DNA of 64,000 nucleotides from an endosymbiont of Lamellibrachia barhami. GTDB taxonomy: Bacteria; Pseudomonadota; Gammaproteobacteria; Chromatiales; Chromatiaceae. Position numbers and translations under genes: made by a program. Where the stretch lies: the NCBI RefSeq assembly GCF_011947365.2, contig NZ_JAAVSH020000001.1:2210696-2274695 (forward strand), in the 5' to 3' direction. The notes below the pieces were generated by a model that was given only the letters and a program-made list of their open reading frames with translations, ran no database searches and had not been told where the DNA came from. Shown in pieces: positions 1-63,603 of this stretch. How positions within the stretch are numbered: the first letter of the stretch is position 1; each line of letters begins with the position of its first letter.

Positions 1-1342
1 GCAGGCGGGCGGCATCCTGGCGGCGCCCTGCAGTGTGTTCCAGCGCCGTCTCTATCATCACTGTCTCAAAGTCTGAACCCGCTTCATCAAGCAGGGCTTC
101 CGCACCGGATTGCAGACGGCTGCGCGTCCAGGCACGCAGCTGTTGCCGCCAGTCTCCACTGATTTCACTCCGCGACTCTTCCTGTCGCAGCTCCGGCGGC
201 AGATCCTCGATATGGATCTCCTGACCAGAAGCCATCACTGTGAGCCAGCGGGCAGTATTTTCCAACTGTCGGACATTACCTGGCCAGTCGAGTTGGCGCA
301 GAAATTCTGTGGTTTCCGGCAATAAAATCTTCGCCTCAACCTCCAACTCTTCAGAGGCATTGGCAAGAAAGTGGCGCATCAAGAGCGCAATATCCTCTTT
401 TCGTTCCCGCATTGCGGGAATATGGATTCTTATCACGTTGAGCCGGTGAAACAGGTCCTCCCTGAAGTCGCCCCTTTTCACCAGCCCTTCCAGATTCTGG
501 TGGGTGGCGGCTATGATCCGCACATCGACCTTCACCGGTTCATGACCACCCACGCGGTAGAACTGGCCATCCGCCAATACCCGCAGCAGCCGGGTTTGCA
601 ACTCCGCCGGCATGTCACCAATCTCATCCAGAAAGAGTGTGCCGCCATCCGCCTGTTCAAAACGCCCTTTACGGCGGCTCTGTGCTCCAGTGAAAGCACC
701 ACGTTCATGACCGAATAGCTCGGACTCCATCAGATCCTTGGGTATGGCCGCCATATTCAGGGCGATAAAAGGCGCCTCGGCACGAGGGCTGTGGCGGTGC
801 AAGGCTTGCGCCACCAGTTCTTTACCCGTACCCGATTCCCCATTGATGAGCACCGTGATATTCGAACGGGCCAGCCGCCCTATGGCGCGAAAAACCTCCT
901 GCATGGCCGGCGCTTCACCGATGATCTCAAGCCCCCCTATCTGCTCCTCATCCACCGGTTGAGAATGCGTAAGGTGCTGCCGGCAGGCGCGGCGAATCTG
1001 ATCGACCGCCTCATCCACATCGAAGGGTTTCGGCAGATACTCAAAGGCGCCCTTATGATAAGCAGAGACTGCGCTTTCGAGATCTGAATGTGCCGTCATA
1101 ATGATCACCGGAAGCGATGGATAGCGGGCCTGGATCATCTCCAGCAACTCCAATCCGTCGATCCCCGGCATGCGTATATCGGAAACGATGACGTCCGGCT
1201 GCTCTGCCTTCAAGGCATCGAGCACACCATTACCCGTTTCAAAACTGGTGACCACCATGTCCGCCTTCTGCAGCGTCTTCTCCAACACCCAGCGGATGGA
1301 GCGGTCATCATCGATTACCCAAACCCTACACTCTGTTTCCAT
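1..1342 (-). CDS. ntrC: Nitrogen regulation response regulator NtrC (3' end cut by window edge)
   Basis: This is the sigma-54-dependent activator that NtrB phosphorylates when nitrogen is limiting. The visible 447 codons show a receiver domain (acidic cluster at residues 11-13, phospho-acceptor Asp about 55 in [14 protein letters not shown] near 105). An AAA+ domain follows with Walker A GESGTGKE, the sigma-54 contact motif GAFTGA and Walker B LFLDEIG. The C-terminal Fis-like helix-turn-helix starts around the left edge and its last 20 or so residues lie outside the window. The start ATG at 1342 overlaps the ntrB stop as TGATG, so the two are translationally coupled. NtrC is usually about 470 residues, which fits. 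Confidence 0.96.
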
Positions 1343-2415
1343 CAGCTCGATTCCAAAGGAAGTAATACGGTGAAAATTGTCGCGCCGGGACGACTGGTAA
1401 ATTCAATCAAACCGTTGTGCTGATTGATCAGGGATTGCGCAATCGAAAGACCCACGCCCATACCATCACTGCTGCCGGAGACCATGGGGAAAAAAATCCT
1501 GTTTTGCAGTGACTCGGGGATACCGGGACCGTTGTCGAAGATATTGACTTTCAATACCAGACGGTGGCGTTCATTACCGATAGTAAACTGCCTTAGCACC
1601 CGTGTTTTCAGACCGACCACTCCTTTATTGCCCACCGCCCGGACAGCGTTGCGCAAGATGTTCAGAAAGGCCTGAATCAACTGATCGAAATCCCCCACGA
1701 CATCGGGAATACTGGGATCGTAATCCCTCTGAATCCTCAGTCGATCACCCGCCTCGACCTGCACCAGGTTGCAGATACGCTCCAGCACATGATGAATACT
1801 GAGGGGTCTCTTTTCCGGTAGACGGTTGGGACCCAGCATACTGTTCACCAGATTCTGCAGTCGATCTGCCTCCTCGATGATGATCTGGGTGTACTCTTTC
1901 AGCGACTCATCAGGAAGTTCCCGTTCCAGCAGCTGTGCTGCACCCCGCAACCCTCCCAGAGGATTTTTTATCTCGTGAGCCATACCCCTTACGAGGGCGC
2001 GTGAGACCTGGCCCTGGGAGAGCAACTCCTCTTCCCTGTTGATGCGCAGCTGTCGATCCAGTTGCTGCAGTTCGACGAGCAACTCCTCCTCCCCACTGTT
2101 ATCCCGCAGCGGCACCACCGTACAATCGACGGTGATCTCCCTGCCATCCGCCAGCGGCAGAGTAATTTCCCGCTCAGTGAACGGCTGCCCTGATTCGCTG
2201 GCCCGCCCCAGGTTAGATTCAACCGTTCCACCTGGACAGTGGATCAGATCATCCACCCGCTGACCGATAACCTGTCTGGCACTCACTGCAAACAGCATCT
2301 CACCGGCAGGATTGATGTATTTCAAAATAAAAGCCTGGTCGAAAAGGAGAATCGAGTAACTCAGATTCTCCAATACCCGTCTTTCCAGCGTGCTTGTCTG
2401 CTGCTGTTTATCCAT
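1342..2415 (-). CDS. ntrB: Nitrogen regulation sensor histidine kinase NtrB
   Basis: A cytosolic two-component kinase/phosphatase that sets NtrC phosphorylation in response to PII. The 357 residues comprise an N-terminal PAS domain (about 10-120), a dimerisation/phospho-acceptor region with the H-box GMAHEIKNPLGG (His about 147), and an HATPase domain with N-box and DNGPGIP and GMGVGLSIA motifs near the C-terminus. No membrane segment is present, as expected for NtrB. It is the first gene of ntrBC. The ATG at 2415 has no clear ribosome-binding site. The first 25 codons are present again at 3546-3620 as a truncated copy, because of the tandem duplication in this region. Confidence 0.96.
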   Translation of the reverse strand: MDKQQQTSTLERRVLENLSYSILLFDQAFILKYINPAGEMLFAVSARQVIGQRVDDLIHCPGGTVESNLGRASESGQPFTEREITLPLADGREITVDCTVVPLRDNSGEEELLVELQQLDRQLRINREEELLSQGQVSRALVRGMAHEIKNPLGGLRGAAQLLERELPDESLKEYTQIIIEEADRLQNLVNSMLGPNRLPEKRPLSIHHVLERICNLVQVEAGDRLRIQRDYDPSIPDVVGDFDQLIQAFLNILRNAVRAVGNKGVVGLKTRVLRQFTIGNERHRLVLKVNIFDNGPGIPESLQNRIFFPMVSGSSDGMGVGLSIAQSLINQHNGLIEFTSRPGATIFTVLLPLESS

Positions 2416-3545: not shown

Positions 3546-3620
3546 GAAAAGGAGAATCGAGGAGCTCAGATTCTCCAATACCCGTCTTTCCAGCGTGCTT
3601 GTCTGCTGCAGTTTATCCAT
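3546..3620 (-). pseudogene. Truncated 5' fragment of ntrB
   Basis: The first 25 codons of ntrB (start ATG at 3620, MDKLQQTSTLERRVLENL...) are present again, then the frame runs into the 146-bp junction sequence. Compared with the intact gene there are few substitutions (for example CAG to CTG at codon 4). This fragment marks the left boundary of duplication copy 2. Confidence 0.85.
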
Positions 3621-3819
3621 ATCTGTCTGACATGCAATAACCGAACCAATTTGAAAAGTTAGGGATGCTATTCCGTTCCTGCACGACGCAACAGCATACA
3701 AACCGGGCATACACGGGTGTTTGTAACCACGGAGCAGAACTTCCCGGATCGATATGCCTTAAACAAGGTTGAATGACTCTCCCTGTTATTGGACACAACG
3801 GAATGGAACGCAGAGCTGC

Positions 3820-59769: not shown

Positions 59770-59903
59770 TCTTCAGAAACAGAGGAAAAAAAGCCATTAA
59801 AGTCGCCTAGTCTAGCAAAAAACGTCCCCTGCCTGCCCCTACAAAATTACAGCGAAATATGATTCCAGGAATCTGCTGCGCCAGAGGCCGTTTAGGAGAG
59901 GTG

Positions 59904-60626
59904 ATGACCAAACATATCGGGATCCTGACTGCGGGCGGCGACAGCCCCGGCCTCAATGCAGCGATCCGCGGCGTCGGTAAGGCGGCGCAGAGTTATTACG
60001 ACATGCAGATGATTGGTTTCATGGACGGCTTTCGGGGTCTGGTGGATAACCGCACCACCCGTTTGGACGGGGGTGTGCTCTCCGGCATTCTGACCCAAGG
60101 TGGCATCATCCTGGGCACCAGCCGGGATAAACCCCACCGCATGGTGTTTGCGGGCAAGAAGCAGGACATGACAGATGTGATTGTGGAGAACTATGCGGCG
60201 AATCACCTTGATGCGCTTGTCTGTCTGGGTGGCGGGGGGACCCAGAAGAACGCCCTGCAACTGATGGAGAAGGGGTTGAACATCATCACCCTGCCCAAGA
60301 CTATCGATAACGATGTGGGCAAAACCGATACGACCTTCGGCTTCGATACCGCCCTGGGCATCGCCACTGAAGGCATCGACAGGCTTCACAGCACTGCTCA
60401 CAGTCACCATCGGATCATCGTGGTGGAGATCATGGGACATCGGGCCGGCTGGCTCGCTTTGGGCGCCGGCATTGCAGGCGGGGCGGATGTGATCCTACTG
60501 CCGGAGATCCCTTACGATATCGAGAGCGTAGCCGAGGCGATTCGCGCCCGGGTGCGCAGCGGCAAGAACTTCAGTATTGTCGCCGTGTCGGCACCAGTTT
60601 TGGGGATAGCTGAGCCTCGTCCATAA
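59904..60626 (+). pseudogene. 3'-truncated PfkA-family phosphofructokinase
   Basis: 240 codons. The N-terminal two-thirds of a PfkA-family enzyme: [19 protein letters not shown] where ATP-PFKs have [14 protein letters not shown] with the catalytic Asp, and [17 protein letters not shown]. PFKs are usually 320-400 residues; here the family sequence breaks off at about residue 228 and the next gene ends at 60669, so the last third is missing. The GGGGT variant of the phosphate-binding loop suggests a distinct PFK branch, possibly PPi-dependent. It may be a decayed gene or a partial product. The start is the ATG at 59904 behind GGAGAGG. Confidence 0.8.
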
Positions 60627-60668: not shown

Positions 60669-61298
60669 CTATGCAGAGAGTCTCTGATCGAGAGCGTGAT
60701 GGGTATCGCACGGTTGCAACTGATGGTGGGCTACGCCTGCCTGCTGTAGTTGGTACTGAAGTTTTTTCAGTTTCTGCGGTGACAATAACTTGGTGTGAAC
60801 AGTGGTACGGACCTCATAAGCCACGCCGCTGGCCATCAGCAGTTGCAGGCTCTCCCAGGCATTTTCTCCACTACCACTGACGCCGGTCAGGGCTGCGTAA
60901 TCTTCTGGCAGTGCCTTGATGTCCAAACCGATCCAGTCGAGCAGAGGTAGCAGTTCGGCCAGTCTTTCAGGGTAGGCCCCGGCGCTGTGCAGGCCGATCT
61001 TAAACCCCAGCGCTTTGACCTGTTGAATAGCAGGTTTGAGGGCGCTCTGCAGGGTGGGTTCGCCGCCGCTGAAAACCACGGCGTCCAACAGTCCCTGACG
61101 CTGTTCGAGAAAGGCGATGATCTCATCCCATTCGATCAATGCAGGATCGCTGCTTATGCGGGGCAACAGATGGCCATTGTGGCAGTAGCGGCAACGCCAG
61201 GGGCAGCCCTGGCAGAAGATGACCGCTGCCAGTTCGCCCGGATAGTCGATGGTGGTCATTGGCGTGAGACCACCGACCTGTAGTGTTGTTTGCTGCAT
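60669..61298 (-). CDS. nrdG: Anaerobic ribonucleotide reductase activating protein NrdG
   Basis: 209 residues. A radical SAM enzyme that generates the glycyl radical on NrdD. The cluster motif is CQGCPWRCRYCHNGHL, preceded by TTIDYPGELAAVIF. GGEPTLQS is the GGE SAM-binding block. No ribosome-binding site is seen; a heptamer array lies about 16 bp upstream. It follows the NrdD tail gene. Confidence 0.92.
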   Translation of the reverse strand: MQQTTLQVGGLTPMTTIDYPGELAAVIFCQGCPWRCRYCHNGHLLPRISSDPALIEWDEIIAFLEQRQGLLDAVVFSGGEPTLQSALKPAIQQVKALGFKIGLHSAGAYPERLAELLPLLDWIGLDIKALPEDYAALTGVSGSGENAWESLQLLMASGVAYEVRTTVHTKLLSPQKLKKLQYQLQQAGVAHHQLQPCDTHHALDQRLSA

Positions 61299-61313
61299 GA
61301 TAATAATGAGGCT

Positions 61314-61346
61314 AAAGGCTAAAGGCTAAAGGAGACCGTGCCGCCG
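61314..61346. repeat. Heptamer array (AAAGGnn)3 + ACCGTGCCGCCG
   Basis: AAAGGCT, AAAGGCT, AAAGGAG, then ACCGTGCCGCCG, in the gap between the NrdD tail gene and nrdG. Immediately followed by a TAGGCC palindrome arm (61347-61376). Confidence 0.85.
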
Positions 61347-61397: not shown

Positions 61398-61571
61398 CTA
61401 AACCTGGCCCTGGTGAAGTTGAGCCTGGCTCTCTTTGAAGCAGCGCCGATCCCTGTGTTCCGACTGCTTACCGGGATTGAAGGCCGAGACGGGACGGTGG
61501 TAACCCATCACCCGGGTCCAGACTTCGCAGCGGGTACGCTCTTCCTCTTTCAGTTCAATGGCAGCTTGCAT
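61398..61571 (-). CDS. Separate glycyl-radical tail of class III NrdD (out-of-frame small gene)
   Basis: 57 residues: ERTRCEVWTRVMGYHRPV, SAFNPGKQSEHRDR and a short C-terminus. This resembles the C-terminal glycyl-radical domain of NrdD, where R[VI]xGYxRPV...N.GK carries the radical Gly (Gly23 here). It lies in the +1 frame relative to nrdD and starts at an ATG (61571) within the nrdD 3' end, with GGAG about ten bases upstream. The nrdD frame itself stops at 61555 without this domain. Either the subunit is split in two chains or a programmed frameshift joins them. A sequencing frameshift is less likely, given the start codon and ribosome-binding site. Confidence 0.75.
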   Translation of the reverse strand: MQAAIELKEEERTRCEVWTRVMGYHRPVSAFNPGKQSEHRDRRCFKESQAQLHQGQV

Positions 61572-63603
61572 GGTTGTGTAACTCCTGTTGTTTATGGGCG
61601 ATCAATTCGTCGTCACAGCTTGGGCAGAACTCGTGCTCGCCGCTGAGATAACCGTGCTTCGGACAGATCGAAAAGGTTGGGGTGATGGTGATATAGGGCA
61701 GGCGGAAGCGCTCCAGTGAACGTTTGACCAGACGCCGGCAGGCCTCGGTAGAGCTGATGCGCTCGTTCATATAGAGGTGCAACACCGTGCCGCCCGTGTA
61801 CTTTTGCTGCAAAGGTTCCTGGCGGGCAAGTGCCTCGAAGGGGTCGTCGGTAAATCCCACCGGCAGCTGTGAGGAGTTGGTGTAGTAGGGCTTCTTCAGC
61901 GTGCCTGCCTGGAGAATCTCGGGCCAACGCTTGCGATCTTCCTTGGCGAAGCGGTAGGTAGTGCCCTCTGCAGGCGTCGCCTCCAGGTTGTACATGTTGC
62001 CGGTCTGTTCCTGGAACTCGACCATGCGTTCGCGGATATGGTCGAGGAGGCGGATCGCCATGGCGCTACCCGCTTCAGCGGTGATGTCCTGCTCATCCGC
62101 AGTGAAGTTGCGAACCATCTCATTGATGCCGTTTACGCCGATGGTGGAGAAGTGGTTGCGCAGGGTGCCGAGATAGCGTTTGGTATAGGGGAAGAGTCCC
62201 GCATCCATGTGGCGCTGTATCACCTTGCGTTTGATCTCCAGACTGGTGCGGGCGAGGCGCAGCAGTTCATCGAGCCGCTGCATCAATGCGCTTTCATCCC
62301 CTTGGTAGAGGTGCCCCAGGCGGGCGCAGTTGATGGTCACCACCCCCAGCGAGCCGGTCTGCTCCGCCGAGCCGAACAGGCCGTTGCCGCGTTTCAGCAG
62401 TTCCCGCAGGTCGAGCTGCAGACGGCAGCACATGGAGCGGACCATATTCGGCTTGAGGTCGGAGTTGAGGAAATTCTGGAAGTAGGGCAGGCCATACTTG
62501 GCGGTCATGGCGAATAACAACTCCGCATTTTCGCTCTCCCAGGGGAAGTCGGGGGTGATGTTGTAGGTGGGGATGGGAAAGGTAAAGACCCGGCCCTTGG
62601 CATCCCCTTCAGTCATTACCTCGATATAGGCGCGATTGATGAGATCCATCTCGTGCTGCAGCTCGCCGTAGGTGAAATCCATCTCTTCACCGGCGATGAC
62701 CGGTATCTGCTCGCGCAGGTCCTCCGGGCAGACCCAGTCGAAGGTCAGATTGGTGAAGGGAGTCTGAGTACCCCAGCGGGAGGGTACGTTGAGATTGTAG
62801 ATTAACTCCTGAATGTACTGCCGGACCTGCTCGTAACTCAGACTATCCTGGCGAACATAGGGGGCCATGTAGGTGTCGAAAGAGCTGAAGGCCTGGGCGC
62901 CGGCCCACTCGTTCTGTAATGTGCCGAGGAAGTTGACGATCTGCCCCACGGCGGAGGACATGTGCTTGGCTGGACCCGATTCCACTTTTCCCGGCACGCC
63001 GTTGAGTCCTTCATGCAGCAGGGTGCGCAGGGACCAGCCGGCGCAGTAACCTGCCAGCATGTCCAGATCGTGGATGTGGATGTCGCCTTCCCGGTGCGCC
63101 TCCCCCACTTCGGGCGGATAGACATGGCTCAGCCAGTAGTTGGCGAGCATCTTGCCTGAGGTGTTGAGAATCAGACCGCCAAGGGAGTAGCCCTGGTTGG
63201 CGTTGGCACTCACCCGCCAGTCGGCCCGCTCAAGATATTCATTGACCGAAGTGGAGACATCCACCAGCGTGCGGCGATCCTGCCGCAACTTTTTATGCTG
63301 TTCACGATAGACGATGTAGGCGCGGGCGGTTTGCAGGTGGTTGGCGCTGATCAACACCTGCTCGACGATATCCTGGATGCGCTCGATATCCGGGATCTGG
63401 TGTCGATAACCCGTATGGGCCAGCACCTTCACTACCTGGGCGGTGAGTAGCTGGGCCTCAGACTCATCGAGTTCTCCTGTGGCCTGGCCTGCCTGCAGGA
63501 CTGCGGTCCTGATCTTGGCGGCGTCGAATGCTGTTTGTGACCCATCCCGCTTTTCTACCTTGATGGGTAGAAATAACGGTGATTTTTCGAGTTTGACGGA
63601 CAT
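61555..63603 (-). CDS. nrdD: Anaerobic (class III) ribonucleoside-triphosphate reductase, catalytic part
   Basis: 682 residues. The N-terminal ATP-cone (PIKVEKRDGSQTAFDAAKIRTAVLQ, about 14-100) is followed by the ten-stranded barrel with active-site Cys in VRSMCCRLQLDLREL. The C-terminal zinc-type ligands lie in CPKHGYLSGEHEFCPSC. The usual glycyl-radical C-terminus is missing; it lies in the overlapping frame at 61398-61571. GGAGG at 63608-63612 is the ribosome-binding site. An FNR-type operator lies upstream, fitting anaerobic induction. Confidence 0.9.
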   Translation of the reverse strand: MSVKLEKSPLFLPIKVEKRDGSQTAFDAAKIRTAVLQAGQATGELDESEAQLLTAQVVKVLAHTGYRHQIPDIERIQDIVEQVLISANHLQTARAYIVYREQHKKLRQDRRTLVDVSTSVNEYLERADWRVSANANQGYSLGGLILNTSGKMLANYWLSHVYPPEVGEAHREGDIHIHDLDMLAGYCAGWSLRTLLHEGLNGVPGKVESGPAKHMSSAVGQIVNFLGTLQNEWAGAQAFSSFDTYMAPYVRQDSLSYEQVRQYIQELIYNLNVPSRWGTQTPFTNLTFDWVCPEDLREQIPVIAGEEMDFTYGELQHEMDLINRAYIEVMTEGDAKGRVFTFPIPTYNITPDFPWESENAELLFAMTAKYGLPYFQNFLNSDLKPNMVRSMCCRLQLDLRELLKRGNGLFGSAEQTGSLGVVTINCARLGHLYQGDESALMQRLDELLRLARTSLEIKRKVIQRHMDAGLFPYTKRYLGTLRNHFSTIGVNGINEMVRNFTADEQDITAEAGSAMAIRLLDHIRERMVEFQEQTGNMYNLEATPAEGTTYRFAKEDRKRWPEILQAGTLKKPYYTNSSQLPVGFTDDPFEALARQEPLQQKYTGGTVLHLYMNERISSTEACRRLVKRSLERFRLPYITITPTFSICPKHGYLSGEHEFCPSCDDELIAHKQQELHNHASCH

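Follow-up and report, generated by a model that had tools for sequence, protein, structure and literature searches.

In anaerobic cells, DNA precursors are supplied by class III ribonucleotide reductase, which has been described as one polypeptide plus an activase. The locus studied here raises the question of where such an enzyme carries its glycyl radical when the nrdD gene stops short of the radical glycine and the remaining piece lies on a separate small open reading frame (ORF). The window, i.e., the whole stretch of DNA that was analysed, comprises 64,000 nt from an endosymbiont of Lamellibrachia barhami (contig NZ_JAAVSH020000001.1, positions 2,210,696-2,274,695), and inspection of its ORFs and translations revealed the minus-strand gene order nrdD, a 57-aa ORF and nrdG2.

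Gene organization and family membership

The nrdD gene (61555..63603, minus strand, as are all features of the cluster below) encodes a catalytic chain of 682 aa (77.6 kDa) with an ATP-cone (PF03477), a barrel and a zinc ribbon, and the chain matched NF006126 (1149 bits), PF13597 (588 bits) and TIGR02487 (475 bits). Its finger loop, SMCCR (residues 390-394; 62422..62436), is of the double-cysteine class III type and meets the class feature of an MGCR or MCCR motif, the motif classes being those of PMC9669993 (available in part). The zinc-type ligands C647-x2-H650-x9-C660-x2-C663 (61615..61665), assigned from sequence only and without metal-binding data, are retained and all four were invariant in two alignments of relatives (A1, 13 rows; A3, 31 rows). 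The initial annotation had NrdD ending after these ligands without the radical glycine, and this held: the chain covered only positions 2-531 of the 562 of PF13597, with C647-C663 followed soon after by the stop.

The missing part of the family model, positions 532-561, was matched by the small ORF (61398..61571; 57 aa, 6.77 kDa; 34.6 bits, cut-off 26.2). This ORF starts with an ATG at 61571 in the +1 frame relative to nrdD, overlaps the nrdD end by 17 nt and is preceded, 10 nt upstream, by an AGGAG ribosome-binding site that lies within the nrdD coding region (61582..61586), so the RVMGYHRP tail with its own start and ribosome-binding site was likewise found as annotated. One class III feature, a C-terminal radical glycine carried by the catalytic chain itself, is thus absent from NrdD and present only in the pair, and the NrdG feature is provided by the third gene of the cluster, the radical-SAM activase gene nrdG2 (60669..61298; TIGR02495, 210.7 bits, cut-off 131.15).

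The predicted radical glycine is Gly23 of the small ORF (codon 61503..61505, within RVMGYHRP), which a profile of 26 small ORFs aligned, weakly (E 0.08), with residue 621 of T. maritima NrdD; Gly621 is the radical glycine of that enzyme (PMC4493059, partial text). The small ORF alone found no match among PDB chains (phmmer, E 1), and PF13597 was the sole Pfam family matched at E 0.01 in 26/26 scanned tails (alignment A4). Across 123 tails, the residues R (-11), T, R, V, M, G, Y, R (+3), P, N (+9), G, K, E and R (+19), numbered from the glycine, were 99-100% conserved, which is partly a selection effect because split loci were recognised by part of this motif. Outside the selection pattern, a cysteine 8 residues N-terminal to the glycine (Cys15, codon 61527..61529) was present in 122/123 split tails. 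The same site in nine distinct fused enzymes more than 40% identical is Cys in five (L068, L092, L129, L145 and L148) and Thr or Ser in four (L034, L035, L052 and L186), and an Asp follows the last zinc-ribbon cysteine in 122/123 split cores (the remaining one was not read). As a guess, Cys15 may bind zinc or staple the two chains together; there is only a correlation for this, and no coordinates.

Two further features of the region were recorded. A short tandem repeat of ctaaagg units (61299-61340) lies in the spacer that separates nrdG from the small gene; the C-terminal ends of the tails differ among congeners, and such repeats are possibly the cause. On the plus strand, a 6-phosphofructokinase ORF of 255 aa (59859-60626) looks truncated, its PF00365 match ending at position 220 of 277.

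A proposed two-chain reductase and its inferred need for the small subunit

The locus very probably encodes a class III (anaerobic) ribonucleotide reductase of two chains, with a radical subunit acting in trans. This proposal starts from observed gene structure, conservation, selection, genetic unlinking and co-occurrence; no protein has been seen, and expression, docking and the radical are inferred. The 682-aa NrdD would supply the ATP-cone for regulation, the barrel for catalysis, whose finger loop forms the thiyl, and the zinc ribbon, and the 57-aa peptide would carry the glycyl-radical loop. The peptide is envisaged to dock by the zinc ribbon so that the RVMGY loop enters the barrel, like the covalent C-terminus of an ordinary NrdD; NrdG2 would then remove a hydrogen from Gly23, from which the radical would move to a finger-loop cysteine and on to the substrate. 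Since glycyl-radical enzymes are cut by oxygen at their radical-bearing glycine (PMC4390871, seen in excerpt), a small radical carrier may be cheaply replaceable with the 78-kDa chain kept, an exchange after oxygen damage that is again an inference. The small subunit docked on NrdD and activated by NrdG, which the initial annotation had put forward, is accordingly supported as the best reading of the locus, with docking and radical formation in trans remaining inferred.

Whether NrdD depends on the peptide can be approached through co-occurrence. In a class sample of 274 genomes, 28 matched PF13597, comprising 20 headless cores (i.e., without the glycine-bearing model positions), 6 fused enzymes and 2 partial or weak matches, and a separate tail was present in 20/20 of the headless-core genomes. 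A phylum sample of 398 genomes gave 57 with PF13597 matches, and its headless-core genomes had a separate tail in 12/12 cases, three of these 12 (the genome of the window included) being also in the class sample. A small peptide that is merely a regulator or spare part, with NrdD working without it, for example by means of a radical on another residue, is very unlikely against this background of headless cores that co-occurred with tails in every such genome of both samples. Moreover, the partner of the small protein YfiD, pyruvate formate-lyase, has a radical domain of its own, whereas the NrdD core here has none. YfiD nevertheless lends this alternative a precedent as a known free-standing glycyl-radical spare part (PMC8683613, accessible in part).

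Evidence for a separate gene

The two-chain reading also requires that the tail be made as its own polypeptide. The tail was detected in 38/92 genomes, the genome of the window counted, and in 30 loci taken from 41 listed places it was always on an ORF distinct from the core. Split records pooled from several searches numbered 133, of which 123 were left after removing copies. In these 123 non-redundant loci, the small ORF was distributed over all three frames relative to nrdD (48/42/33) and its start fell anywhere from 86 nt ahead of the nrdD stop to 298 nt past it (median +28), tail starts having been chosen with a preference for an ATG and a Shine-Dalgarno sequence. An in-frame ATG was available in 123/123 loci. 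When the nearest ATG was taken irrespective of any Shine-Dalgarno sequence, a match of at least 4 bases was found at 86% of the 123 starts, versus 9.6% of 1706 internal in-frame ATGs.

Selection was assessed among six congeneric genomes. In its own frame the small ORF showed 0.238 synonymous and 0.038 non-synonymous changes per site, and in the two shifted frames the purifying pattern was gone (0.036/0.094 and 0.031/0.089 synonymous/non-synonymous). The dN/dS of the tail, computed on codons 7-50 and hence outside the nrdD overlap, was 0.05-0.25 (15 pairs from the six genomes), and that of the core, over its last 350 codons, was 0.03-0.11 in congeneric pairs.

The tail can also be genetically unlinked from the core. 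In the genomes of two cores without an adjacent tail (L120 and L124; genomes G711 and G712), one core and one tail each were found on different contigs, the tail being followed by nrdG as a tail-nrdG pair apart from the only core, and in G625 the core and such a pair share a contig, approximately 9 kb apart. A separate polypeptide is the only simple reading for these three genomes. For a third core with no tail beside it (L071), the contig ends 135 nt past nrdD and no tail was detected in its genome (G713), which leaves one core with no known tail, possibly owing to the contig end. The core and tail share one frame in G525, broken by stops, and in G608 and G676, without stops.

These data bear on a programmed +1 frameshift or stop read-through that would join the tail to NrdD as one chain. 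The +1 frame and the 17-nt overlap recur identically in the five other congeneric genomes searched, and in-frame stops lie inside the PF13597 match in G525 and G494, both in favour of such a mechanism; nonetheless, the use of all three frames, the starts up to 298 nt past the stop, the enrichment of Shine-Dalgarno sequences at tail starts and the non-adjacent tails of G711, G712 and G625 make it extremely unlikely. A sequencing or assembly error, or a decaying gene, is suggested only by the general frequency with which a gene split into two frames is an artefact, and can be practically dismissed since five congeners and 73 of the best 80 named relatives keep the split, and both parts are under purifying selection among the congeneric genomes. 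Frameshift, read-through and artefact were hence all rejected on the three frames, the selection and the occurrence of tail and core on different contigs; a missing or extra base, or a single fused peptide, either of which would have overturned the initial annotation, likewise failed against the split in five congeners and 123 loci.

Structure models

The predicted fold of a natural fused relative (L148) reached a pLDDT of 82.7 and best matched class III reductases (Foldseek E 8e-29). The window core alone was predicted at a pLDDT of 72.2, with stretches below 50 that include residues 126-147, 274-283, 393-419 and 642-659; the flap, loop 2, the finger loop and the zinc ribbon were among the low regions. 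The flap, loop 2 and the radical domain form one network according to the portion available of PMC11226230. Because L148 was also below 50 at residues 389-409, covering part of the finger loop, and the alignments of the two models differed in depth (38 and 29 rows), the low confidence of the core was given little weight and merely agrees with a missing partner.

Range among bacteria and evolutionary history

Among named genomes, the best 80 of at least 592 relatives (593 stretches) were examined, of which 73 were split, 4 were fused and 3 (L120, L124 and L071, discussed above) had no tail beside nrdD. Split members include Pseudomonas brassicacearum, P. chlororaphis, Stutzerimonas stutzeri, Thiobacillus thioparus and Microbulbifer marinus. 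Plasmids gave 133 matching records, and six of them were examined: the enzyme was split in Cupriavidus necator H16, Sulfuricystis multivorans, Paracoccus denitrificans, Bradyrhizobium ottawaense and Sulfuricurvum kujiense, and fused in the sixth, Actinomyces oris. Given the latter and the 4/80 fused named relatives, this type of enzyme does not strictly require separation. In several more phyla, split forms were found in metagenome bins only and may be misbinned.

In a tree of 107 rows, the split type and six fused enzymes formed a clade of 104 rows (SH-aLRT 100), within which the six fused enzymes were scattered among 95 split ones. A topology with every split row in a single clade was not rejected by an AU test on a 48-row subset (p 0.104), and re-fusion versus several fissions is therefore undecided.

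The nrdDG operon of C. necator H16 is of the split type, and nrdDG of this strain is essential for complete denitrification (PMC2864759, partly available). In the public annotation of its plasmid pHG1, the core is named "ribonucleoside triphosphate reductase" and a 66-aa ORF "nrdD", and thus databases contain the pieces without an explanation; the entry 5138 listed in a genome paper is inferred to be the tail. The initial annotation had suggested that small nrdD-linked frames may occur in other proteobacteria, and this was right in that NCBI calls such ORFs "nrdD", as in H16; no paper explaining them was found. In the open-access literature, as far as its accessible text goes, no description was found of a class III enzyme split in this way, with the radical on a subunit of its own, an earlier mention for H16 or Neisseria bacilliformis not being excluded.

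Viral and probable prophage copies of the small gene

A tail profile identified 139 relatives in IMG/VR, and the best 80 of these were examined; they comprised 69 DNA clusters and 47 tail types at 90% identity. Neither a core nor nrdG was found near the viral tails at any of these best 80 of 139 loci (tblastn, E 1e-4; flanks of up to 4 kb per side, less at contig ends). In the whole IMG/VR records, which may be fragments, only the tail end of PF13597 was matched in 80/80 of the best 80 of 139, with one exception (G786) that had an additional weak match to positions 486-538 (E 2e-4). The small gene alone on many viral contigs is perhaps a replacement part for the host enzyme. Among 50,697 records of cultured phages in INPHARED, the tail was nearly absent (two weak matches in one search and one in another), and the open-access literature, seen in part, yielded no description of phage copies of the small gene.

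As for genomic context, 16 neighbour proteins from nine of the 80 viral loci were scanned and 12 matched PHROGs. A packaging, virion, tail-fibre, lysis or integration gene was present at seven of the nine loci (L196, L204, L208, L214, L216, L221 and L240), L246 had a replication initiator as its neighbour, and L229 gave no match. In addition, a locus in bacterial genome G031 (L188), whose own NrdD is split (L022), was identical to viral record L244 across 8129 nt. Genome G321, also with a split NrdD, carries an extra tail (L189) beside RecE-like and NrdA-like genes, probably in a prophage with several nucleotide-metabolism genes.

The glycine was retained in 80/80 and the cysteine in 78/80 of the best 80 of 139 viral tails. 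A cysteine-rich N-terminal module, defined by a pattern of our own, occurred in 11/80 of them, and in several module-bearing tails the PF13597 match begins earlier, at positions 513-523, the zinc-ribbon region. Two N-extended phage tails matched phrog_4132, a PHROGs family of unknown function that the window tail also matched (E 1.7e-9).

The phage copies are best explained as spare radical subunits, a role inferred without any biochemistry. On balance, we lean towards a two-chain enzyme whose exchangeable radical subunit is exploited by phages from many lineages, including temperate ones, as a lone spare part that would revive or boost the oxygen-damaged reductase of the host for phage DNA synthesis. 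The main rival is that the phage copies are decoys which block host NrdG or NrdD and are not working radical subunits; this is rather unlikely and yet has to be kept in view, as phages often inhibit host enzymes and some copies bear the extra cysteine-rich modules. In a decoy the glycine could be lost without harm, yet the viral tails have kept it, and phages generally require more dNTPs; the former argument is weakened since the search and script patterns include part of the motif, so that glycine-less viral copies are under-sampled.

Two observations in G031 concern tails away from nrdD. A further free-standing tail gene was found there (L187, minus strand, approximately 4.5-4.9 kb), and a nearby ORF (3573-3800, minus strand) without a Pfam match has a cysteine-rich pattern resembling the N-terminal module of some phage tails.

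Relation to known systems and implications

The enzyme resembles the single-chain class III reductases of T. maritima, Prevotella copri and phage T4 in its barrel, finger loop, zinc ribbon, radical loop and NrdG-type activase, a likeness that rests on PF13597, sequence and PDB fold matches; in those enzymes the radical loop forms the C-terminal end of the catalytic chain, whereas here it is a separate gene product. With YfiD/GrcA (PMC8683613, as above) the tail shares, by sequence, the feature of a small free-standing glycyl-radical-domain protein, and it is predicted to complement a core in trans. The YfiD/GrcA feature of homology to the pyruvate formate-lyase C-terminus is not met, PF13597 being found alone in the 26/26 tails scanned. 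YfiD/GrcA serves pyruvate formate-lyase, whereas the bacterial tail has an NrdD-type sequence and provides the sole radical domain that its enzyme has; in role, the phage copies are closer to YfiD than the bacterial tail is.

The split class II reductase NrdJa/NrdJb is likewise a two-chain reductase with C-terminal domains on the second chain; however, it belongs to another class, and NrdJb has an IscU-like domain and a zinc finger without a radical glycine (PMC9669993, in the portion seen). The same family-wide analysis describes split class II enzymes and, in its available text, places the class III radical domain C-terminally. Interrupted phage nrdD genes (PMC3653736, available in part) also have nrdD in pieces, through introns, inteins or fragmentation in T4, 949 and phiAS4; here, by contrast, the viral records examined hold the radical piece only and the bacterial split is widely conserved. 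The family phrog_4132, matched by the window tail and the two N-extended phage tails, has no assigned function, and the present results suggest that it is an NrdD-type radical subunit; the spare-part reading, if true, would give this phage family its function.

A radical placed on an exchangeable 57-residue subunit would permit direct study of glycyl-radical transfer, with a carrier that can be synthesised, labelled and swapped. Furthermore, nrdD plus nrdG cloned without the small gene, including from Pseudomonas and Cupriavidus species, should yield an inactive enzyme. If the phage copies work, they would be a minimal means of phage control over the dNTP supply of the host.

Additional features of split loci

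Several loci showed individual peculiarities. Two split cores (L014 and L093) have long C-terminal extensions past the zinc ribbon that are rich in proline and alanine. The split NrdD of G190 (L058/L062) contains approximately 310 additional residues within the core with a LAGLIDADG match, probably an intein. In G302 (L046), a degraded tail-like stretch (approximately 1167-1496, minus strand) lies upstream of the intact motif in the same frame and is possibly an old duplicate. Finally, G717 carries both a split and a fused NrdD (L179 and L185).
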